Of a stretch of 64,000 nt of DNA, positions 2,348-10,280 are shown piece after piece. A model generated the notes under the pieces. That model had not been told where the DNA came from. It did no database searches and was given only the letters and a program-made list of their open reading frames with translations. Position 1 is the stretch's first letter; every line of letters begins with the position of its first letter. This DNA is from Thermanaerovibrio acidaminovorans DSM 6589. GTDB taxonomy: Bacteria > Synergistota > Synergistia > Synergistales > Synergistaceae. The position numbers and the translations under genes were made by a program. The stretch is from the NCBI RefSeq assembly GCF_000024905.1, contig NC_013522.1, positions 620,001 to 684,000 on the forward strand, in the 5' to 3' direction.

Positions 2348-3214
2348 TCAGTACTTGAGGCCGAACACCGGGTGGAAGATCCGCTCGTCGTGGAGGAACC
2401 GGGCCTGTTCCTCCAGGGCCTTCTTTGCCCTGTCCCCCATCCTTATGGCCAGGATGGAGGTGAGCACGTGGACCAGGAAGAGGGGGCCTATGATGCTGCT
2501 CCCGAAGGTGGGGGAGGAGGCGGAGACGAAGAGGGACAGGTCCGCGAACCGGCAGACCGGTGCGGCGGGGCTGTCGGTGATGGATATTATTCGGCAGCCG
2601 TTGGAGTGGGCGATCTCCACCGACTCGGTGACCTCCACCACGTAGCTGGGCAACTCGCACACCACCAGCAGGTCCCCCTCCCGGGCCACCCGGACCTGTT
2701 CGTGCAGGGTTAGGGTGCCCCGCTTGAGGAGGAAGGAGTTTAGGTTCATGACCCTAAGTCGCACCTGGAGGGACTCCGCCACCATGGAGGAGATGCCCCA
2801 TCCGAGGCAGTATATGTTGTTGGCCTCGGTGACCATCTGGCAGAAGGAGGCGGAGCTGGCGGCGGACATCTGGGTCCAGGTGTCGTCCAGGTTGGCGTGT
2901 TCCATCTTGTAGATGGTGTCCGGCAGGCTGTCCTCCGAGTTGGACACCTTGGCCAGCATGGCGGCGGGGTTCACCTGTTCCAGGATTGCCCTCTGGAGGG
3001 CGTCCTTGAGCTCCGAGTAGCCCTCGAAGCCCAGCATCCGGGCCACCCGGACCAGCTGGGCCTTGGAGACCTTCAGGTCCTCCGCCACGTCCCCTATGGA
3101 CCTGAAGGCCGCCTCCCTCATGTTGGACAGCAGGTACTCCACCACCCGCCTTGCCTTGTTGGGCATGCTGTCTATCCTGTCCATCATCAGCGCCTGAAGC
3201 TGGGCACTGTCCAT
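2348..3214 (-). CDS. MurR/RpiR-family transcriptional regulator
   Basis: A 288-residue regulator with an N-terminal RpiR-type helix-turn-helix (about residues 1-77; the SKAQLVRVARMLGFEGYSELK segment is the recognition region). A C-terminal SIS phosphosugar-binding domain follows (about 110-250; NIYCLGWGISSMVAESLQ is the nucleotide-like loop). Such proteins sense sugar phosphates or, in some lineages, amino-acid-derived ligands. ATG start with GGGGTGG upstream. It stands alone, downstream of and co-directional with the VOR operon but separated from it by a hairpin, so its target cannot be read from context. It might act on the neighbouring fermentation operon; that is a guess. Confidence 0.88.
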   Translation of the reverse strand: MDSAQLQALMMDRIDSMPNKARRVVEYLLSNMREAAFRSIGDVAEDLKVSKAQLVRVARMLGFEGYSELKDALQRAILEQVNPAAMLAKVSNSEDSLPDTIYKMEHANLDDTWTQMSAASSASFCQMVTEANNIYCLGWGISSMVAESLQVRLRVMNLNSFLLKRGTLTLHEQVRVAREGDLLVVCELPSYVVEVTESVEIAHSNGCRIISITDSPAAPVCRFADLSLFVSASSPTFGSSIIGPLFLVHVLTSILAIRMGDRAKKALEEQARFLHDERIFHPVFGLKY

Positions 3215-3504: not shown

Positions 3505-4062
3505 CTACTTTGAGGCAACCGCCGCCTTGGCGGTCTCGAAGCCCCGCTCGATGGCGTTCTTGTTCACCTCTATGAGGGCCGCCTTGCCGCCCGCGGAGAG
3601 CTTCTTCTCCAGGGCCTTTACGATGCTCTCCTTGGAGACCACCCCGGTGGCCCCCGCCACGGCGCCCAGCATGACCATGTTGGCCACCTTGAGGTTGCCC
3701 AGCTTCTCGGCGATCTCGTTGCAGGGGACCTTGACGGAGACCAGGTCGGTTCGTTGGGGCTCCCGGTCTATGACGGACTGGTTTATAAGCAGACACCCGT
3801 TGGGGGTCACCGCGGGCTCGAACTTGACCAGGGAGGGGATGTTCATGGCCACCACCACCTCCGCGTCGTTGGTGACCGGGGAGGCCACCTCCTGGTCGCT
3901 TATGACCACCGTGCAGTTGGCGGTTCCACCCCTCATCTCCGGGCCGTAGGAGGGCATCCAGGTGACGTGCTTGCCCTCCAGCATGCCCGCATAGGAGATT
4001 ATCTGTCCCATGAGCATGACGCCCTGGCCGCCGAAGCCGGCGAAGATCATACGAGTGTTCAT
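3505..4062 (-). CDS. 2-oxoacid:acceptor oxidoreductase, gamma subunit
   Basis: A 185-residue gamma subunit of a four-subunit pyruvate/2-ketoisovalerate-type ferredoxin oxidoreductase. The glycine-rich FAGFGGQGVMLMGQ near the N-terminus and the MRGGTANCTVVIS segment are typical of the family. The gamma chain helps bind CoA and packs against the alpha and beta chains. It is the last gene of the operon, 3 bases after the beta subunit. The context (aminotransferase, butyrate kinases) favours branched-chain 2-oxoacids over pyruvate, by inference. Confidence 0.93.
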   Translation of the reverse strand: MNTRMIFAGFGGQGVMLMGQIISYAGMLEGKHVTWMPSYGPEMRGGTANCTVVISDQEVASPVTNDAEVVVAMNIPSLVKFEPAVTPNGCLLINQSVIDREPQRTDLVSVKVPCNEIAEKLGNLKVANMVMLGAVAGATGVVSKESIVKALEKKLSAGGKAALIEVNKNAIERGFETAKAAVASK

Positions 4063-4065
4063 GGT

Positions 4066-4815
4066 CTACTCACCCACCTTGTCCACGAATACTCCCAAGG
4101 GATACTCGGGAACCATGTTCTCCTCCAGCCACTTGAGGGACTTGACCGGGTCCATTCCCCAGTTGGTGGGGCAGGTGGATAGCACCTCCACCATTCCGAA
4201 CCCGATGCCCCTCACCTGGGCCAGGAAGGCCTTCCGGATGGCCTCCTTGGTCTTCCTGACGTCCTGGGGGGTGTTGACCTTGGTCCGGGCCAGGTAGGCC
4301 ACGCCCCGGGTCTCCTTGATGATCTCCGAGACCCTAAGGGGGTACCCGTCGTTCTCCGCCTTCCTGCCGTAGGGGGTGGTGGTGCTCTTCATCCCCAGCA
4401 GGGTGGTGGGGGCCATCTGGCCGCCGGTCATGCCGTAGATGGCGTTGTTGACGAAGATGGTGGTTATCTTCTCACCCCGGTTGGCGGCGTGGACTATCTC
4501 GGCGGTGCCGATGGCGCCCAGGTCCCCGTCCCCCTGGTAGGTGAAGACGTACAGGTCCGGCCTGGCCCTCTTTATGCCCGTGGCCACCGCCGGGGCCCTG
4601 CCGTGGGCGGCGATGGTGCCGTCGGTGTCGAAGAACTCGTAGGCGAACACCGAGCAGCCGATGGGGGCCACGGTGATGGTGTTCTCCCTCATGTCAAGCT
4701 CGTCCAGCACCTCCGCCACCAGCCGGTGGATAACCCCGTGGGTGCAACCGGGGCAGTAGGTGAACTCCCTCATGGTGAGGCTCTCGGGCCTCTTCATAAC
4801 AACCTGGAAAGTCAT
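4066..4815 (-). CDS. 2-oxoacid:acceptor oxidoreductase, TPP-binding beta subunit
   Basis: A 249-residue beta chain that binds thiamine diphosphate and takes part in oxidative decarboxylation of a 2-oxoacid to acyl-CoA with reduction of ferredoxin. The YCPGCTHGVIHR motif, APIGCS, the TPP/Mg motif QGDGDLGAIGTAEIVHAAN and the NNAIYGMTGGQMAPTT stretch are all present. The ATG is preceded by GGAGGTAAG. It sits between the alpha and gamma genes with spacings under 10 bases, so the chains are co-translated. No ferredoxin domain is fused; that role belongs to the separate small gene upstream. Confidence 0.94.
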   Translation of the reverse strand: MTFQVVMKRPESLTMREFTYCPGCTHGVIHRLVAEVLDELDMRENTITVAPIGCSVFAYEFFDTDGTIAAHGRAPAVATGIKRARPDLYVFTYQGDGDLGAIGTAEIVHAANRGEKITTIFVNNAIYGMTGGQMAPTTLLGMKSTTTPYGRKAENDGYPLRVSEIIKETRGVAYLARTKVNTPQDVRKTKEAIRKAFLAQVRGIGFGMVEVLSTCPTNWGMDPVKSLKWLEENMVPEYPLGVFVDKVGE

Positions 4816-4822
4816 ATCCGGC

Positions 4823-5884
4823 TTACCTCCCCAGCTTAGAGTTTAGGGCCCCGAGGATCTCGTCGGGGGTGGGGACAACCCCGCCCATCCGCTTGAAGAA
4901 CTCTATGGGGGCGTTGTCCTTCACCGCCAGCTTCACGTCCTCCAGCATCTGCCCCATGTTCATCTCCGCGTCGAAGATCAGCTTCTTGCCCTTGGAGAGC
5001 TCCTCCAGGCGCTTGTAGGGGAAGGGCCAGATGGTGATGGGCCTGAAGAGCCCCGCCTTTATGCCCTGTTCCCTGGCCTGGTCCACCACGCTCTTGGCTA
5101 TCCGGGCCACGGTGCCGAAGGCGGTGATAACCACCTCCGCGTCCTCGAGCCGGTACTCCTCCCACCGGGTCTCGTTCCGCTCCATCTCCTCGTACTTGGC
5201 CACCAGCGCCAGGTTCATCTGCTCCAGCCGGTAGGGATCCAGGTCGAAGGGGGCCACGACCCTCTTCTGGCGGCCCTTGTTGCCCTTGAGGGCCCAGGTG
5301 TCGTGGGTGGGTAGCTGGGACAGGTCAACGAAGTCCGGGAAGGTAACGGGCTCCATGATCTGGCCGATGACCCCGTCCGCCACGATGAGGGTGGGGTTCC
5401 GGTACTTGTCCGCCAGGTCGAAGGCCAGCACCGTCAGGTCCACCGCCTCCTGGACGGTGGAGGGGGCCAGGACTATCAGCTTGTAGTCCCCGTGTCCGCC
5501 CCCCTTGGTGGCCTGCCAGTAGTCCCCCTGGGAGGGCTGGATGTCCCCCAGCCCCGGTCCTCCGCGCACCACGTTGACCAGCACCGCCGGCAGCTCCGCG
5601 CAGGCCATGTAGGAGACCCCTTCCTGCATGAGGCTGTAACCCGGCGAGGAGGTGGAGGTCATGACCCGGGTGCCCGTGCAGGCGGCCCCGTAGACCATGT
5701 TTATGGTGGCCACCTCGCTCTCGGTCTGGAGGAAGGTGCCGTTCACCTCCGGCATCCGTTTGGACATGTACTCCGGGAGCTCGTTCTGAGGCGTTATGGG
5801 GTAGCCGAAGAACAGCCTGCAGCCCGCCCTAACGGCCGCCTCTCCCATGGCTTCAGTTCCCTTTACCAAAACTCTCTCGGCCAT
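4823..5884 (-). CDS. vorB: 2-oxoacid (3-methyl-2-oxobutanoate type) oxidoreductase alpha subunit
   Basis: A 353-residue alpha chain most like VorB, the catalytic partner of the TPP-binding subunit in branched-chain 2-oxoacid:ferredoxin oxidoreductase. Landmarks are FFGYPITPQNELPEYM, the glutamate-containing QTESEVATINMVYGAA, TSTSSPGYSLMQEG and VVRGGPGLGDIQPSQGDY. The C-terminal third carries the transketolase C-like domain. The start ATG has GGGAGGGG 8 bases upstream. It lies between the ferredoxin subunit and the beta subunit. Substrate choice is inferred from family resemblance and from the butyrate kinase neighbours. Confidence 0.92.
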   Translation of the reverse strand: MAERVLVKGTEAMGEAAVRAGCRLFFGYPITPQNELPEYMSKRMPEVNGTFLQTESEVATINMVYGAACTGTRVMTSTSSPGYSLMQEGVSYMACAELPAVLVNVVRGGPGLGDIQPSQGDYWQATKGGGHGDYKLIVLAPSTVQEAVDLTVLAFDLADKYRNPTLIVADGVIGQIMEPVTFPDFVDLSQLPTHDTWALKGNKGRQKRVVAPFDLDPYRLEQMNLALVAKYEEMERNETRWEEYRLEDAEVVITAFGTVARIAKSVVDQAREQGIKAGLFRPITIWPFPYKRLEELSKGKKLIFDAEMNMGQMLEDVKLAVKDNAPIEFFKRMGGVVPTPDEILGALNSKLGR

Positions 5885-5923
5885 CTACGTTCCCCTCCCA
5901 ATCTTGGTTTGGACCCAGCTCTC

Positions 5924-6154
5924 TTAAGCGTTCTCCACTTCCTTGTAGACGGTTATGCAGACGTCGGGGCATATGTTGTAGCAGAACCCGCAACCGATGC
6001 ACTTGTCCACGTGCTTCGCCTCCGCCGGGTGGTAGCCCTTGTTGTTGAAGTTGTCCCCGAACTCGATGACCTTCATGGGACACACGCTCACGCAGAGCCC
6101 GCAGCCCTTGCACCTCTCCTGATCGATTTCGATCTTTCCCTTGGCCTTTGCCAT
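5924..6154 (-). CDS. 4Fe-4S ferredoxin-type delta subunit
   Basis: A 76-residue two-cluster ferredoxin subunit. It carries CKGCGLCVSVCP and CIGCGFCYNICP, each a CxxCxxCxxxCP cluster signature. It would pass electrons from the TPP site of the oxidoreductase to free ferredoxin. The ATG at 6154 is preferred because the ribosome site GGAGGTG is well spaced from it; the in-frame GTG at 6163 overlaps that site. It is the first of the four oxidoreductase genes, directly downstream of the P-loop protein. Confidence 0.94.
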   Translation of the reverse strand: MAKAKGKIEIDQERCKGCGLCVSVCPMKVIEFGDNFNNKGYHPAEAKHVDKCIGCGFCYNICPDVCITVYKEVENA

Positions 6155-6178
6155 CCCGCTCACACCTCCGTAAAGGGT

Positions 6179-6832
6179 CTATATTTCCATCCGCATGAAC
6201 CGGCGTATCTTGAAGACCGGGAACCGAAGGCCCTGGACGTCCAGGAAGTCCGGCACCACCGTGTACTTCACCGGTATGGACAACCTCTCCGACGCCTCCG
6301 CCAGGACCTCCTCCCCCCGACGGATCAGGTCCGGGGTGGTCTCCCTGGAGAGGTTGGGGTTGTTTATCAGGTAGTCCACCTTGAGGTCCGCCACCCGGGA
6401 GAGGTCATTGAGGGCCCTCTCGATCCCCGCCACAGTGGAGGAGAAGGGACGGGCCACGTTGACCACCATGGATATCTCGCAGTCCCCCAGGTGGGGCTTC
6501 AGATAACCGAGCACCACCACGCCCCCCTCCTCGCCCCCCACGTCCATCACCGTCTTATACTCCTGTCGCTCCAGGTAGCCCCTGGCGGCGCCGGTGATGA
6601 CCGGAAGGTCCCCATTTCTCAACGCCCCCTTTGGGTACACGGGGGTGAGCCCCATCTCCTCCAGCTCCTCCGCCACGTCCCGGCTCCTGAAGTAGGGGGA
6701 GATTATGTCCCCGTCCACTATGGCCACCTGGGGGTGCTGGCTCCGGAGGTACAGGGCCCAGTTTATGGCCATCTCGGTCTTGCCGCTTCCGAACAGGCCG
6801 ATGAAAGCGTAGTTCTTCCTCAGTTGGGTCAC
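6179..6832 (-). CDS. P-loop NTP-binding protein of unknown function
   Basis: A 217-residue protein with an N-terminal Walker A loop GLFGSGKTEMAIN (about residues 13-25), a following acidic strand AIVDGDIISPYFRSR, and a Walker B-like VMDVGGEEGG near residue 95. The fold looks like the SIMIBI/MinD-CobB class of P-loop proteins, with NNPNLSRE in the position of a base-recognition loop. It has no transmembrane segments. GTG start with TAGGAGG upstream. It sits between the butyrate kinases and the ferredoxin subunit with gaps of about 10-25 bases, so it is translated with the fermentation enzymes. A role in metal or cluster delivery, or in regulation of the oxidoreductase, is speculation. Confidence 0.75.
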   Translation of the reverse strand: MTQLRKNYAFIGLFGSGKTEMAINWALYLRSQHPQVAIVDGDIISPYFRSRDVAEELEEMGLTPVYPKGALRNGDLPVITGAARGYLERQEYKTVMDVGGEEGGVVVLGYLKPHLGDCEISMVVNVARPFSSTVAGIERALNDLSRVADLKVDYLINNPNLSRETTPDLIRRGEEVLAEASERLSIPVKYTVVPDFLDVQGLRFPVFKIRRFMRMEI

Positions 6833-6842
6833 GCTGGGCCTC

Positions 6843-7946
<1,104 letters not shown>

Positions 7947-7954
7947 TTAGTGGC

Positions 7955-9043
7955 TTAGTTTGAACCCCCGGCGGAGAAGGTGAACTCCTTCGCCGCCTCC
8001 TGGCCGGTCATCACCCGCAGGGCCCCGTACGCCAGGGCCTCCATCTCCATCTCTCCCGGCACGGTGAACACCCGGGCGAAGCGCCCCACCCGGGACTGGA
8101 TCATCTGGACGAACCGATCGCTGTGGGCCATCCCGCCGGTGATGACGATGCAGTCCACCCTGCCCTTGAGGGCCACGCACATGGCCCCTATCTCCTGGGC
8201 TATCTGGTAGGCCATGGCCTCTATGACCTCCAACGCCTTGGGGTCCTCCTGGGCCATCTTGAAGGCCTCCCGGAGGTCATTGGTCCCCAGGTAGGCCACC
8301 AGCCCCCCTTTGCCCACGAAGGTCTTCTTGAGCTGGTCCTTGGTGTACTGTCCCGAGTAGGCCACCTTGACCACGTCGCCCACCGGGAGCTCCCCGGACC
8401 TCTCCACGCTGAAGGGGCCCTCGTCGTTGGCGTTGTTCACGTCGAACATGCGTCCCCTCTCGAAGGGGGCCACGGAGATGCCGCCCCCCAGATGGGCTAT
8501 CACCATGTTGGTCTCGTTGAAGGGGCGCTTGAGCTCCTCCTCCGCCACCTTGATGCCCACCACCCGCATGTTGGATATGTGGGACAGGCACTTGCGCTCC
8601 AGGTCCTTTATGCCCGATATGCGGGCCACCGGATCCATCTCGTCCACGCTGACCGGATCGGTAACGTAGACCGGGATGGGCTTGGAGGCCTTCCGGGCCA
8701 TGTCCAGCCCTATCACCGCCGCCAGGTTGGACGCGTGTTGCACCCTGGCGTGGTGGAGCAGGAAGTCCTCCATGGCCTGGTTGGCCAGGTAGGTGCCGCT
8801 CTCCAGTGGTGGCAGTATCCCCCCCCGGGCGGCTATGGCGTCCAGCTGATCCAGCGACACCCGGTTCGTCGCCAGGAAGTCCATTATGGCCCTCTCCCGG
8901 AGCTCCCGCTGGTCCATAAGGGTCTCGTACCGGTCCAGCTCCTCCGCCGGGTGGGACAGGTTCTCCTGGGATATCCTATCCCTGTCCTCGAAGAGGGCCA
9001 CCTTGGTGCTGCTGGATCCGGGGTTTATGACCAGTATCTTCAT
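7955..9043 (-). CDS. buk: Butyrate kinase, copy 2
   Basis: A 362-residue paralogue of the neighbouring kinase, starting with an almost identical [20 protein letters not shown]. The AHLGGGISVAPFERGRMFDVNNANDEGPFSVERSG and VITGGMAHSDRFV motifs are conserved. The two copies have diverged over most of their length, so this is an old duplication rather than a recent one. The start ATG lies next to the stop of the aminotransferase (ATGTAAC then ATG), which implies tight translational coupling. Different chain-length or branching preference for the two copies is plausible but not visible in sequence. Confidence 0.93.
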   Translation of the reverse strand: MKILVINPGSSSTKVALFEDRDRISQENLSHPAEELDRYETLMDQRELRERAIMDFLATNRVSLDQLDAIAARGGILPPLESGTYLANQAMEDFLLHHARVQHASNLAAVIGLDMARKASKPIPVYVTDPVSVDEMDPVARISGIKDLERKCLSHISNMRVVGIKVAEEELKRPFNETNMVIAHLGGGISVAPFERGRMFDVNNANDEGPFSVERSGELPVGDVVKVAYSGQYTKDQLKKTFVGKGGLVAYLGTNDLREAFKMAQEDPKALEVIEAMAYQIAQEIGAMCVALKGRVDCIVITGGMAHSDRFVQMIQSRVGRFARVFTVPGEMEMEALAYGALRVMTGQEAAKEFTFSAGGSN

Positions 9044-9044
9044 G

Positions 9045-10280
9045 TTACATCAGCCCCTTCTCCCGACCGTACTGGGCGATCACGTCCTTTAGGCGCCTTA
9101 CCCCCTCCACGATCCTCTCCTCCGGCGGCAGGCAGAAGGAGAGCCTCATGGAGGTGGACGGGGTCTTCTCTATGGAGAAGGCCTCGCCGGGTATGTAGTA
9201 GACGTTCTTGGCCTTGGCCACGTCGAACATGCCTATGGTGTCGAAGCCCTGGGGCAGGGTGACCCACACGAAGAGGCCCCCCTCGGGGTCCACCCACTTG
9301 GCGCCCTTTATCTCCGAGAAGTGCTCGTTCAGGGCCCTTATCATGGTATCCTTCTTGCCCCGATAGAGCTCTATGCCGGGCTTCAGCTGCTCCACCAGGT
9401 CGTGCCTCTCCAGGTACCGGGCGGCTATCCGCTGGGTCAGGGTGGGGCAGCAGAGGTCCATGGCCTGCTTGGCCATGGTGGCCCGCCTTATGATGGAGCT
9501 GTGGCCCACCATCATCCCTATGCGGAGCCCGGGGGTGAGCACCTTGCTGAAGGAGTTGAGGAGCACCACCCGGTCGGGACCCGCCAGCTTGTAGAGGGAG
9601 GGCAGGCGCTCGCCGCTGAAGCGGAGCATCCCGTAGGGATCGTCCTCCAGGATGAGGATGTCGTACCGGTCGCATATCTCGATGAGCTTCTTGCGCTTCT
9701 CCAGGCTCATGGTGACGCTGGCGGGGTTGTGGAAGTTGGGGACCGTGTAGAGGAACTTGACCTTCTTTATCTCCCCCTTGGCGTCCAGCTCCCGGAGGCG
9801 GTTCTCCAGGTAGCCCACGTCCATGCCGTCGTCCTCCAGGGGGACGGTCTCGAAGCGGGGGAAGGACATCCTGAAGGCGCTGACCGCCCCCAGGTAGGCG
9901 GGGAACTCCAGGAAGCAGATGCTGTCCTTGTCCAGGAAGATCCGGGCCATCAGGTCCAGGGCCTGCTGGGATCCGGTGGTGAACAGGAGCTGGTCCCGCT
10001 GGACGTCCGCGATGCCGTAGATGCGGTTAAGGAGCTTGATTATCTGGACGGCCAGGAGGTCATCCCCCTCGGTGGTGCCGTACTGGAGGGTGTAGGAGTA
10101 GTCCTGTTCCACCACCTCCTTGGCTATCTCCGCCAGCTGATGCCTGGGGAAGGTGTTGGGATCCGGCACCCCGCCGCCGAAGGATATGGCCTCCGGCGAG
10201 GCGGCGAACTTCAGGAGCTCCCTTATGATGGAGGAACGCAGGTTGAGCCCCACCTCTGACAGCCTGTCTTCAAATGACAT
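9045..10280 (-). CDS. PLP-dependent class I aminotransferase (LysN/ARO8-like)
   Basis: A 411-residue fold-type I aminotransferase. It has the substrate loop ISFGGGVPDPNTFP, the cofactor region YGTTEGDDLL, VPNFHNPASVTMS, ILEDDPYGMLRF and the PLP lysine in LLNSFSKVLTPGLRIG. Members handle 2-aminoadipate, aromatic or branched-chain amino acids. As first gene of the butyrate kinase/VOR operon it most likely makes 2-oxoacids for oxidation. The ATG at 10280 is chosen because AAGGAG lies 8 bases upstream. A longer frame back to 10376 would run through the promoter hexamers described below, so it is rejected. Confidence 0.9.
   Translation of the reverse strand: MSFEDRLSEVGLNLRSSIIRELLKFAASPEAISFGGGVPDPNTFPRHQLAEIAKEVVEQDYSYTLQYGTTEGDDLLAVQIIKLLNRIYGIADVQRDQLLFTTGSQQALDLMARIFLDKDSICFLEFPAYLGAVSAFRMSFPRFETVPLEDDGMDVGYLENRLRELDAKGEIKKVKFLYTVPNFHNPASVTMSLEKRKKLIEICDRYDILILEDDPYGMLRFSGERLPSLYKLAGPDRVVLLNSFSKVLTPGLRIGMMVGHSSIIRRATMAKQAMDLCCPTLTQRIAARYLERHDLVEQLKPGIELYRGKKDTMIRALNEHFSEIKGAKWVDPEGGLFVWVTLPQGFDTIGMFDVAKAKNVYYIPGEAFSIEKTPSTSMRLSFCLPPEERIVEGVRRLKDVIAQYGREKGLM

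Follow-up and report, generated by a model that had tools for sequence, protein, structure and literature searches.

The 217-residue P-loop protein encoded on the minus strand at positions 6179–6832 is probably the private helper or switch of the VOR-type 2-oxoacid:ferredoxin oxidoreductase whose genes follow it, as indicated by near-constant adjacency to those genes and by joint gain and loss with them. The near-exclusive, co-inherited pairing of the gene with VOR is well supported, and, as judged by Pfam, NCBIfam and the open-access literature, the family is new, its functional kind being already known and its client new to that kind. The odds are about even that the protein is dedicated to VOR and uses ATP to help assemble, activate or repair this enzyme, much as MeaB, CooC or HypB do for their clients. 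It may even be the first dedicated ATPase of the OFOR superfamily, one that moves from phylum to phylum together with VOR, uses ATP to activate, repair or gate it, and was missed earlier because model OFORs lack it, though here the balance tilts slightly against.

OFORs are ancient, oxygen-sensitive enzymes, central to anaerobic carbon and energy metabolism. To our knowledge, no dedicated NTPase partner is known for any of them, and in the open-access literature no paper was found on this P-loop gene, on an OFOR assembly factor or on an OFOR-specific NTPase. VOR is an anaerobic enzyme through which amino-acid-derived keto acids yield energy, and a family present in nearly every Thermotogota genome and in roughly half of the Synergistota genomes sampled would offer a handle on OFOR assembly, protection or control; it could also improve OFOR production in engineered hosts.

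The gene and its operon

The window, that is, the whole stretch of 64,000 nucleotides that was analysed, corresponds to bases 620001–684000 of the complete 1.85 Mb genome of Thermanaerovibrio acidaminovorans DSM 6589. The operon lies on its minus strand in the order aminotransferase, buk1, buk2, P-loop gene, vorD, vorB, vorA and vorC. The P-loop gene, defined by its ORF, its homologues and an AlphaFold2 model, starts with GTG at 6832 and stops with TAG at 6179; its sequence shows a Shine-Dalgarno element, TAGGAGG (6839–6845, minus strand), overlapping the TAG stop of buk2. The gene is separated by 10 nt from the upstream buk2 and by 24 nt from the ATG of vorD. An earlier sequence-only reading of this DNA had described the ORF, the Walker A motif GLFGSGKTEM, the butyrate kinase and ferredoxin-subunit neighbours and gaps of about 10–25 bases, all of which were confirmed here; the minus strand, which it had left unstated, is now added. 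Identities of 85–86% to same-genus orthologues and of 71–73% to Fervidobacterium orthologues, together with 14 invariant residues in 98 homologues, show that the ORF is not a chance one.

By profile matches, the genes 3' of the P-loop gene are those of a predicted four-subunit VOR-type enzyme: vorD (5924–6154), a 2x[4Fe-4S] ferredoxin-type subunit of 76 aa; vorB (4823–5884), the alpha subunit (NF005507, 563 bits against a cut-off of 399); vorA (4066–4815), the TPP-binding beta subunit with a CPGC motif and further Cys (PF02775); and vorC (3505–4062), the gamma subunit (PF01558). On the 5' side, likewise on the minus strand, lie buk2 (6843–7928) and buk1 (7955–9043), both scoring far above the cut-off of the butyrate kinase model TIGR02707 (547 and 429 bits, respectively), and a class I aminotransferase gene (9045–10280, start approximate; PF00155), the first gene of the apparently transferred block discussed below.

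Two further features of the neighbourhood were observed. The ptb gene, which sits between both kinase genes in Thermotogota, is absent from the window operon and likewise in the two other genomes of the genus, and a native ptb-buk pair lies elsewhere in the genome (G000:C1, about 482000–484060). Directly downstream of vorC and on the same strand, an RpiR-type regulator gene (HTH_6 plus SIS; 2348–3214) is kept next to vorC in 3/3 genomes of the genus and is a possible operon regulator.

Fold and conserved motifs

No Pfam or NCBIfam model of a named family was matched above cut-off by the P-loop protein or by 36 homologues, which bears out the statement of the sequence-only reading that no named family was recognisable; a clear match to a known metabolic kinase, which that reading held would refute its proposal, likewise did not appear, no kinase family exceeding its cut-off. 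Below threshold, the protein and 35 relatives matched CbiA, NUBPL/ParA, SRP54 and APS kinase. Searching the PDB with the single sequence gave no significant match, and the hits obtained with the family profile were for the most part confined to short P-loop stretches (best E = 0.0019). An AlphaFold2 model based on 36 sequences had a mean pLDDT of 88 and a pTM of 0.88, and Foldseek returned 181 PDB structures for it at E <= 0.001, with SRP54/FtsY in front (E = 7e-7, TM about 0.6, 14–22% identity), HypB next (E = 2.7e-5, TM about 0.5) and no Mrp among the top 50. Given this ranking, the protein is, on the predicted model, a SIMIBI-class NTPase without a close solved relative. The model and the invariant motifs together provide the SRP/MinD/BioD-class fold, the Walker A motif, the switch I Asp and the Walker B Asp that define the class.

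The 14 residues conserved in 98/98 aligned homologues are G12, G15, G17, K18, D40, D42, R51, D97, G99, G100, N125, R128, P129 and N158. The first four belong to the Walker A motif, residues 12–19 GLFGSGKT (6776–6799), which is followed by Glu20 (97/98). D40, D42 and R51 fall in the presumed switch I, residues 40–51 DGDIISPYFRSR (6680–6715), and D97, G99 and G100 in the presumed Walker B/switch II, residues 97–104 DVGGEEGG (6521–6544). An NxxRP motif spans N125–P129 (6446–6460), and N158 (6359–6361), whose adjoining columns vary, is the lone Asn of a reduced G4 motif without NKxD; all of these motifs are read on the minus strand. Since the guanine-specific NKxD is cut to one Asn, as in the ATPase CooC, where G4 is likewise reduced to a lone Asn (review PMC9164220), the nucleotide is probably ATP. 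No column of the alignment holds Cys or His in at least 50% of the 98 homologues. A divergent member adjoining VOR in another genome (L094, 8348–9178) has a switch I motif without the PYF part (DLDFVKSDFTLRS), and its activity may therefore be altered.

Membership of several known families was considered and rejected. The signature lysine of the MinD/ParA/Mrp class (deviant Walker A, xKGGxGK[ST]) is found at position 13 in only 1/98 homologues. The G3E GTPases (HypB, UreG, CobW) are set aside on the variable residues that follow N158 and on the lack of conserved Cys/His; the cobW model was matched by 4/36 members only, with a best E of 0.0045. An adenylylsulfate kinase or other metabolic kinase is opposed by a PF01583 score of 14.5 bits against a cut-off of 21.1, over 35 matched residues.

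Distribution and linkage to VOR

The family is present in 95/103 Thermotogota genomes, in 95 of about 188 Synergistota genomes and in 15/204 genomes of other groups, two of these 15 being Thermotogota duplicates with the same coordinates (G340 = G147, G482 = G169) and the remaining 13 belonging to ten bacterial families. Linkage was scored from the position of the P-loop gene relative to that of VorB (NF005507), on the same strand and within 4 kb; by this measure about 95% of loci (204/214) are linked, namely 93/95 in Thermotogota, 98/104 in Synergistota and 13/15 in the others. The association with the oxidoreductase proposed from the sequence is thereby strongly supported, and homologues scattered with no link to 2-oxoacid oxidoreductases, which would have spoken against it, were not what was found. 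The gene usually lies directly upstream of vorD, the median gap to vorB of 274–322 nt leaving room for vorD only, and in several lineages it overlaps vorD by a few bases.

Neither Thermotogota exception is a real separation: the vorB of G155 is adjacent but frame-broken, and that of G108 starts at base 1 of a different contig. Two of the Synergistota exceptions, G284 and G220, lie at contig starts, and in G276 the gene adjoins vorC and a kinase gene; G046 and G048 are also exceptions. True separations were found in G097 (Synergistota), G430 and G374, in all three of which VOR is encoded elsewhere in the genome. Outside Synergistota, VorB occurs in 15/15 genomes that have the P-loop gene and in 82/204 generally (Fisher p = 5e-7, or p = 3e-6 without the two Thermotogota duplicates), p-values that overstate independence since the genomes are related.

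The surroundings of the pair vary. Thermotogota have aminotransferase-buk1-ptb-buk2-P-loop-vorDBAC, Synergistota have def-fmt-P-loop-vorDBAC without a kinase gene, and in G403 the kinase position is taken by what seems, from sequence resemblance alone, to be an ADP-forming acyl-CoA synthetase; the constant part is the P-loop gene plus vorDBAC. A link to butyrate kinase instead of VOR was rejected, as the Synergistota cassettes follow def-fmt without kinases. In one Synergistota family, a conserved 154-aa protein, CheX-like by eye only, is encoded between fmt and the VOR genes (L102, 5814–6275; L110, 4259–4720; L111, 5302–5763).

Paralogues, transfer and loss

Eight Synergistota genomes (G100, G209, G215, G216, G225, G226, G269 and G273) have two VOR operons, and a separate P-loop gene accompanies each of them; G276, a split assembly, also has two P-loop genes. 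The second paralogue type is monophyletic in both trees, with a support of 0.995 for the P-loop protein and 1.0 for VorB. One copy per VOR operon is unlike a shared metabolic enzyme, which would need no such copy. In some two-operon genomes the gene comes after vorC rather than before vorD, so that the pairing with VOR outlives gene order.

The aminotransferase-to-vorC block (3505–10280) appears to have been acquired by horizontal transfer from a Fervidobacteriaceae-like member of the Thermotogota. In each tree, the P-loop protein or VorB of the window falls in a 13-member clade with Fervidobacteriaceae (support 1.0); all eight operon genes are 61–86% identical to Fervidobacterium-like operons, the aminotransferase being 69–72% identical to those of Fervidobacteriaceae, and native Synergistota P-loop proteins share only about 35% identity with that of the window. 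At the native locus of this genome (L153, 5395–6829), the gene right after def-fmt is NUDIX-like, and relatives (e.g., L100) carry P-loop-vorDBAC between fmt and the NUDIX-like gene. Clade placement, identities and the bare def-fmt locus thus indicate the absence of the entire native cassette and the presence of an entire foreign one.

The gene can also be lost by itself, with clean losses in Thermotoga-type and in Synergistota relatives. In two Thermotogota genomes (G192 and G195) vorD directly follows buk2 with no P-loop gene between them; G205 and G207 lack the gene, which their relative G206 has. A tree of 112 VorB proteins, sampled so that 20 of them had no P-loop gene next to theirs, shows at least 10 changes between presence and absence, and outside the two main phyla 67/82 VorB-bearing genomes lack the gene. 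Many VORs without the gene and clean losses in close relatives show that the protein is an accessory and not an essential subunit: VOR can be built without it, and it helps in some settings. OFOR operons cloned in Escherichia coli were active, with no such P-loop gene mentioned (PMC13290082). At two Thermotogota loci (L107, 3533–4939; L108, 3599–4989), in genomes apparently close to Thermotoga maritima by their neighbouring genes, the P-loop gene is lost and the rest of the operon kept, while other Thermotogota keep the gene.

Possible functions of the P-loop protein

Maturing or gating of the Fe-S enzyme, as first proposed, fits both the fold and the genetics. The reading of the protein as a dedicated assembly, activation or repair partner is favoured by the linkage to vorB, the per-operon paralogues, the co-transfer, the SIMIBI fold with its HypB match and the lone-Asn G4 resembling that of CooC. 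It is weakened by the many VORs that do without the gene, by the clean losses, by the activity of OFOR operons in E. coli with no such gene mentioned, and by the lack of a conserved Cys or His that could hold a metal. The client would be a single enzyme, the four-subunit VOR encoded by the next four genes. The ATP form of the protein, probably a dimer, would dock on incomplete or damaged VOR, and switch I (D40, D42, R51) and switch II (D97–G104) would couple ATP hydrolysis to a conformational step allowing the assembly, activation or repair of this Fe-S/TPP enzyme, after which the ATPase would depart. Of these steps, contact with VOR, dimerisation and the assembly or repair outcome are those that we infer. 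An AlphaFold2 model of a read-through P-loop/VorD chain gave a pTM of 0.70, about as for two unconnected domains, a value with no sign of an interface.

Another reading, unlikely but deserving attention, is that the protein is a small-molecule kinase or ligase acting on a substrate, product or side product of VOR, such as a keto acid, an acyl-CoA or a thiamine or CoA derivative. SIMIBI folds include ligases such as BioD, the invariant R51 and R128 and the near-invariant D75 could bind a substrate, adenylylsulfate kinase models match weakly (E = 0.04), and kinase genes adjoin the P-loop gene in the window. However, the pairing with VOR persists where kinase genes are absent, no kinase family is matched over cut-off, the DxD of switch I and the DxGG of switch II resemble those of a switch protein, and a small-molecule enzyme serving both operons would not be expected to come in a separate copy for each.

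Roughly one chance in a handful may be given to an ATP/ADP-responsive gate, which would bind mature VOR and tune electron flow to ferredoxin by the energy state of the cell, with no role in assembly. This reading draws on the same genetics as the assembly or repair partner; the clean losses suit a dispensable regulator, feedback is plausible in a pathway that makes ATP via acyl-CoA, phosphotransferase and kinase, and, of all inner segments, three conserved loops (about 41–50, 71–80 and 101–110) were modelled with the least certainty, as expected of mobile switches. Against it, the protein has no sensory domain, its hydrolysis motifs are fully conserved, beyond the needs of nucleotide sensing alone, and no OFOR is known to us to be gated by an ATPase in this way.

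Far less probable is an Mrp/NUBP-type carrier delivering Fe-S clusters to VorD and VorA, the plainest version of the maturation idea. Its appeal lies in a client that holds several [4Fe-4S] clusters, in a DxDIxxP motif like that of Mrp and in weak PF10609 (NUBPL) matches in 35/36 members, but these matches are short and below cut-off (PF10609, 14.8 bits against 27.1; NF008669, 12.2 against 348), and solved structures rank SRP and HypB first. The lack of conserved Cys/His and of the signature lysine, together with the many VORs, those of close relatives included, that manage without the gene, disfavours it. Finally, the idea that the gene is an unrelated passenger, retained in the operon by accident, draws on its dispensability in several lineages but is very hard to reconcile with pairing at about 95% of loci in distantly related groups, with duplication and transfer alongside VOR, and with a cassette lost in one piece.

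Comparison with known systems

The SRP54/FtsY GTPases are the best structural matches of the P-loop protein, which differs from them in having no N domain, no TKxD and no link to secretion. With the Mrp/ApbC/NUBP carriers it has in common DxDIxxP after the P-loop and weak sequence similarity, but neither the signature lysine nor a CxxC motif. The nickel GTPase HypB shares the fold and an ordinary GxxGSGKT-type Walker A, whereas metal-binding Cys/His and NKxD are absent from the P-loop protein. At the level of the pathway, OFOR-Ptb-Buk fermentation clusters follow the same logic, from keto acid to acyl-CoA, acyl-phosphate and finally acid plus ATP, as in the amino-acid fermentation cluster HpdDEFG-J-K, for which no P-loop gene is mentioned (PMC13285125).

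Functional parallels are also offered by CooC and MeaB. CooC, the ATPase of carbon monoxide dehydrogenase, shares the ATP-type reduced G4 with its lone Asn and an anaerobic Fe-S client; it carries the deviant Walker A lysine (PMC9164220), which the P-loop family lacks, as it lacks conserved Cys, and membership was rejected on that lysine and on a client that is VOR and not CODH. MeaB/MMAA, a G protein that acts as chaperone to methylmalonyl-CoA mutase, works with GTP and a switch III on a B12 client, whereas the client here would be a TPP/Fe-S enzyme, and membership was rejected since the MeaB model PF03308 was matched in 4/36 members, with a best E of 0.028. MeaB nevertheless belongs to the same SIMIBI fold class and serves a dedicated client enzyme, and the Asp and Arg of its switch I (D92 and R108; PMC10481361) have a counterpart Asp and Arg in the P-loop protein.
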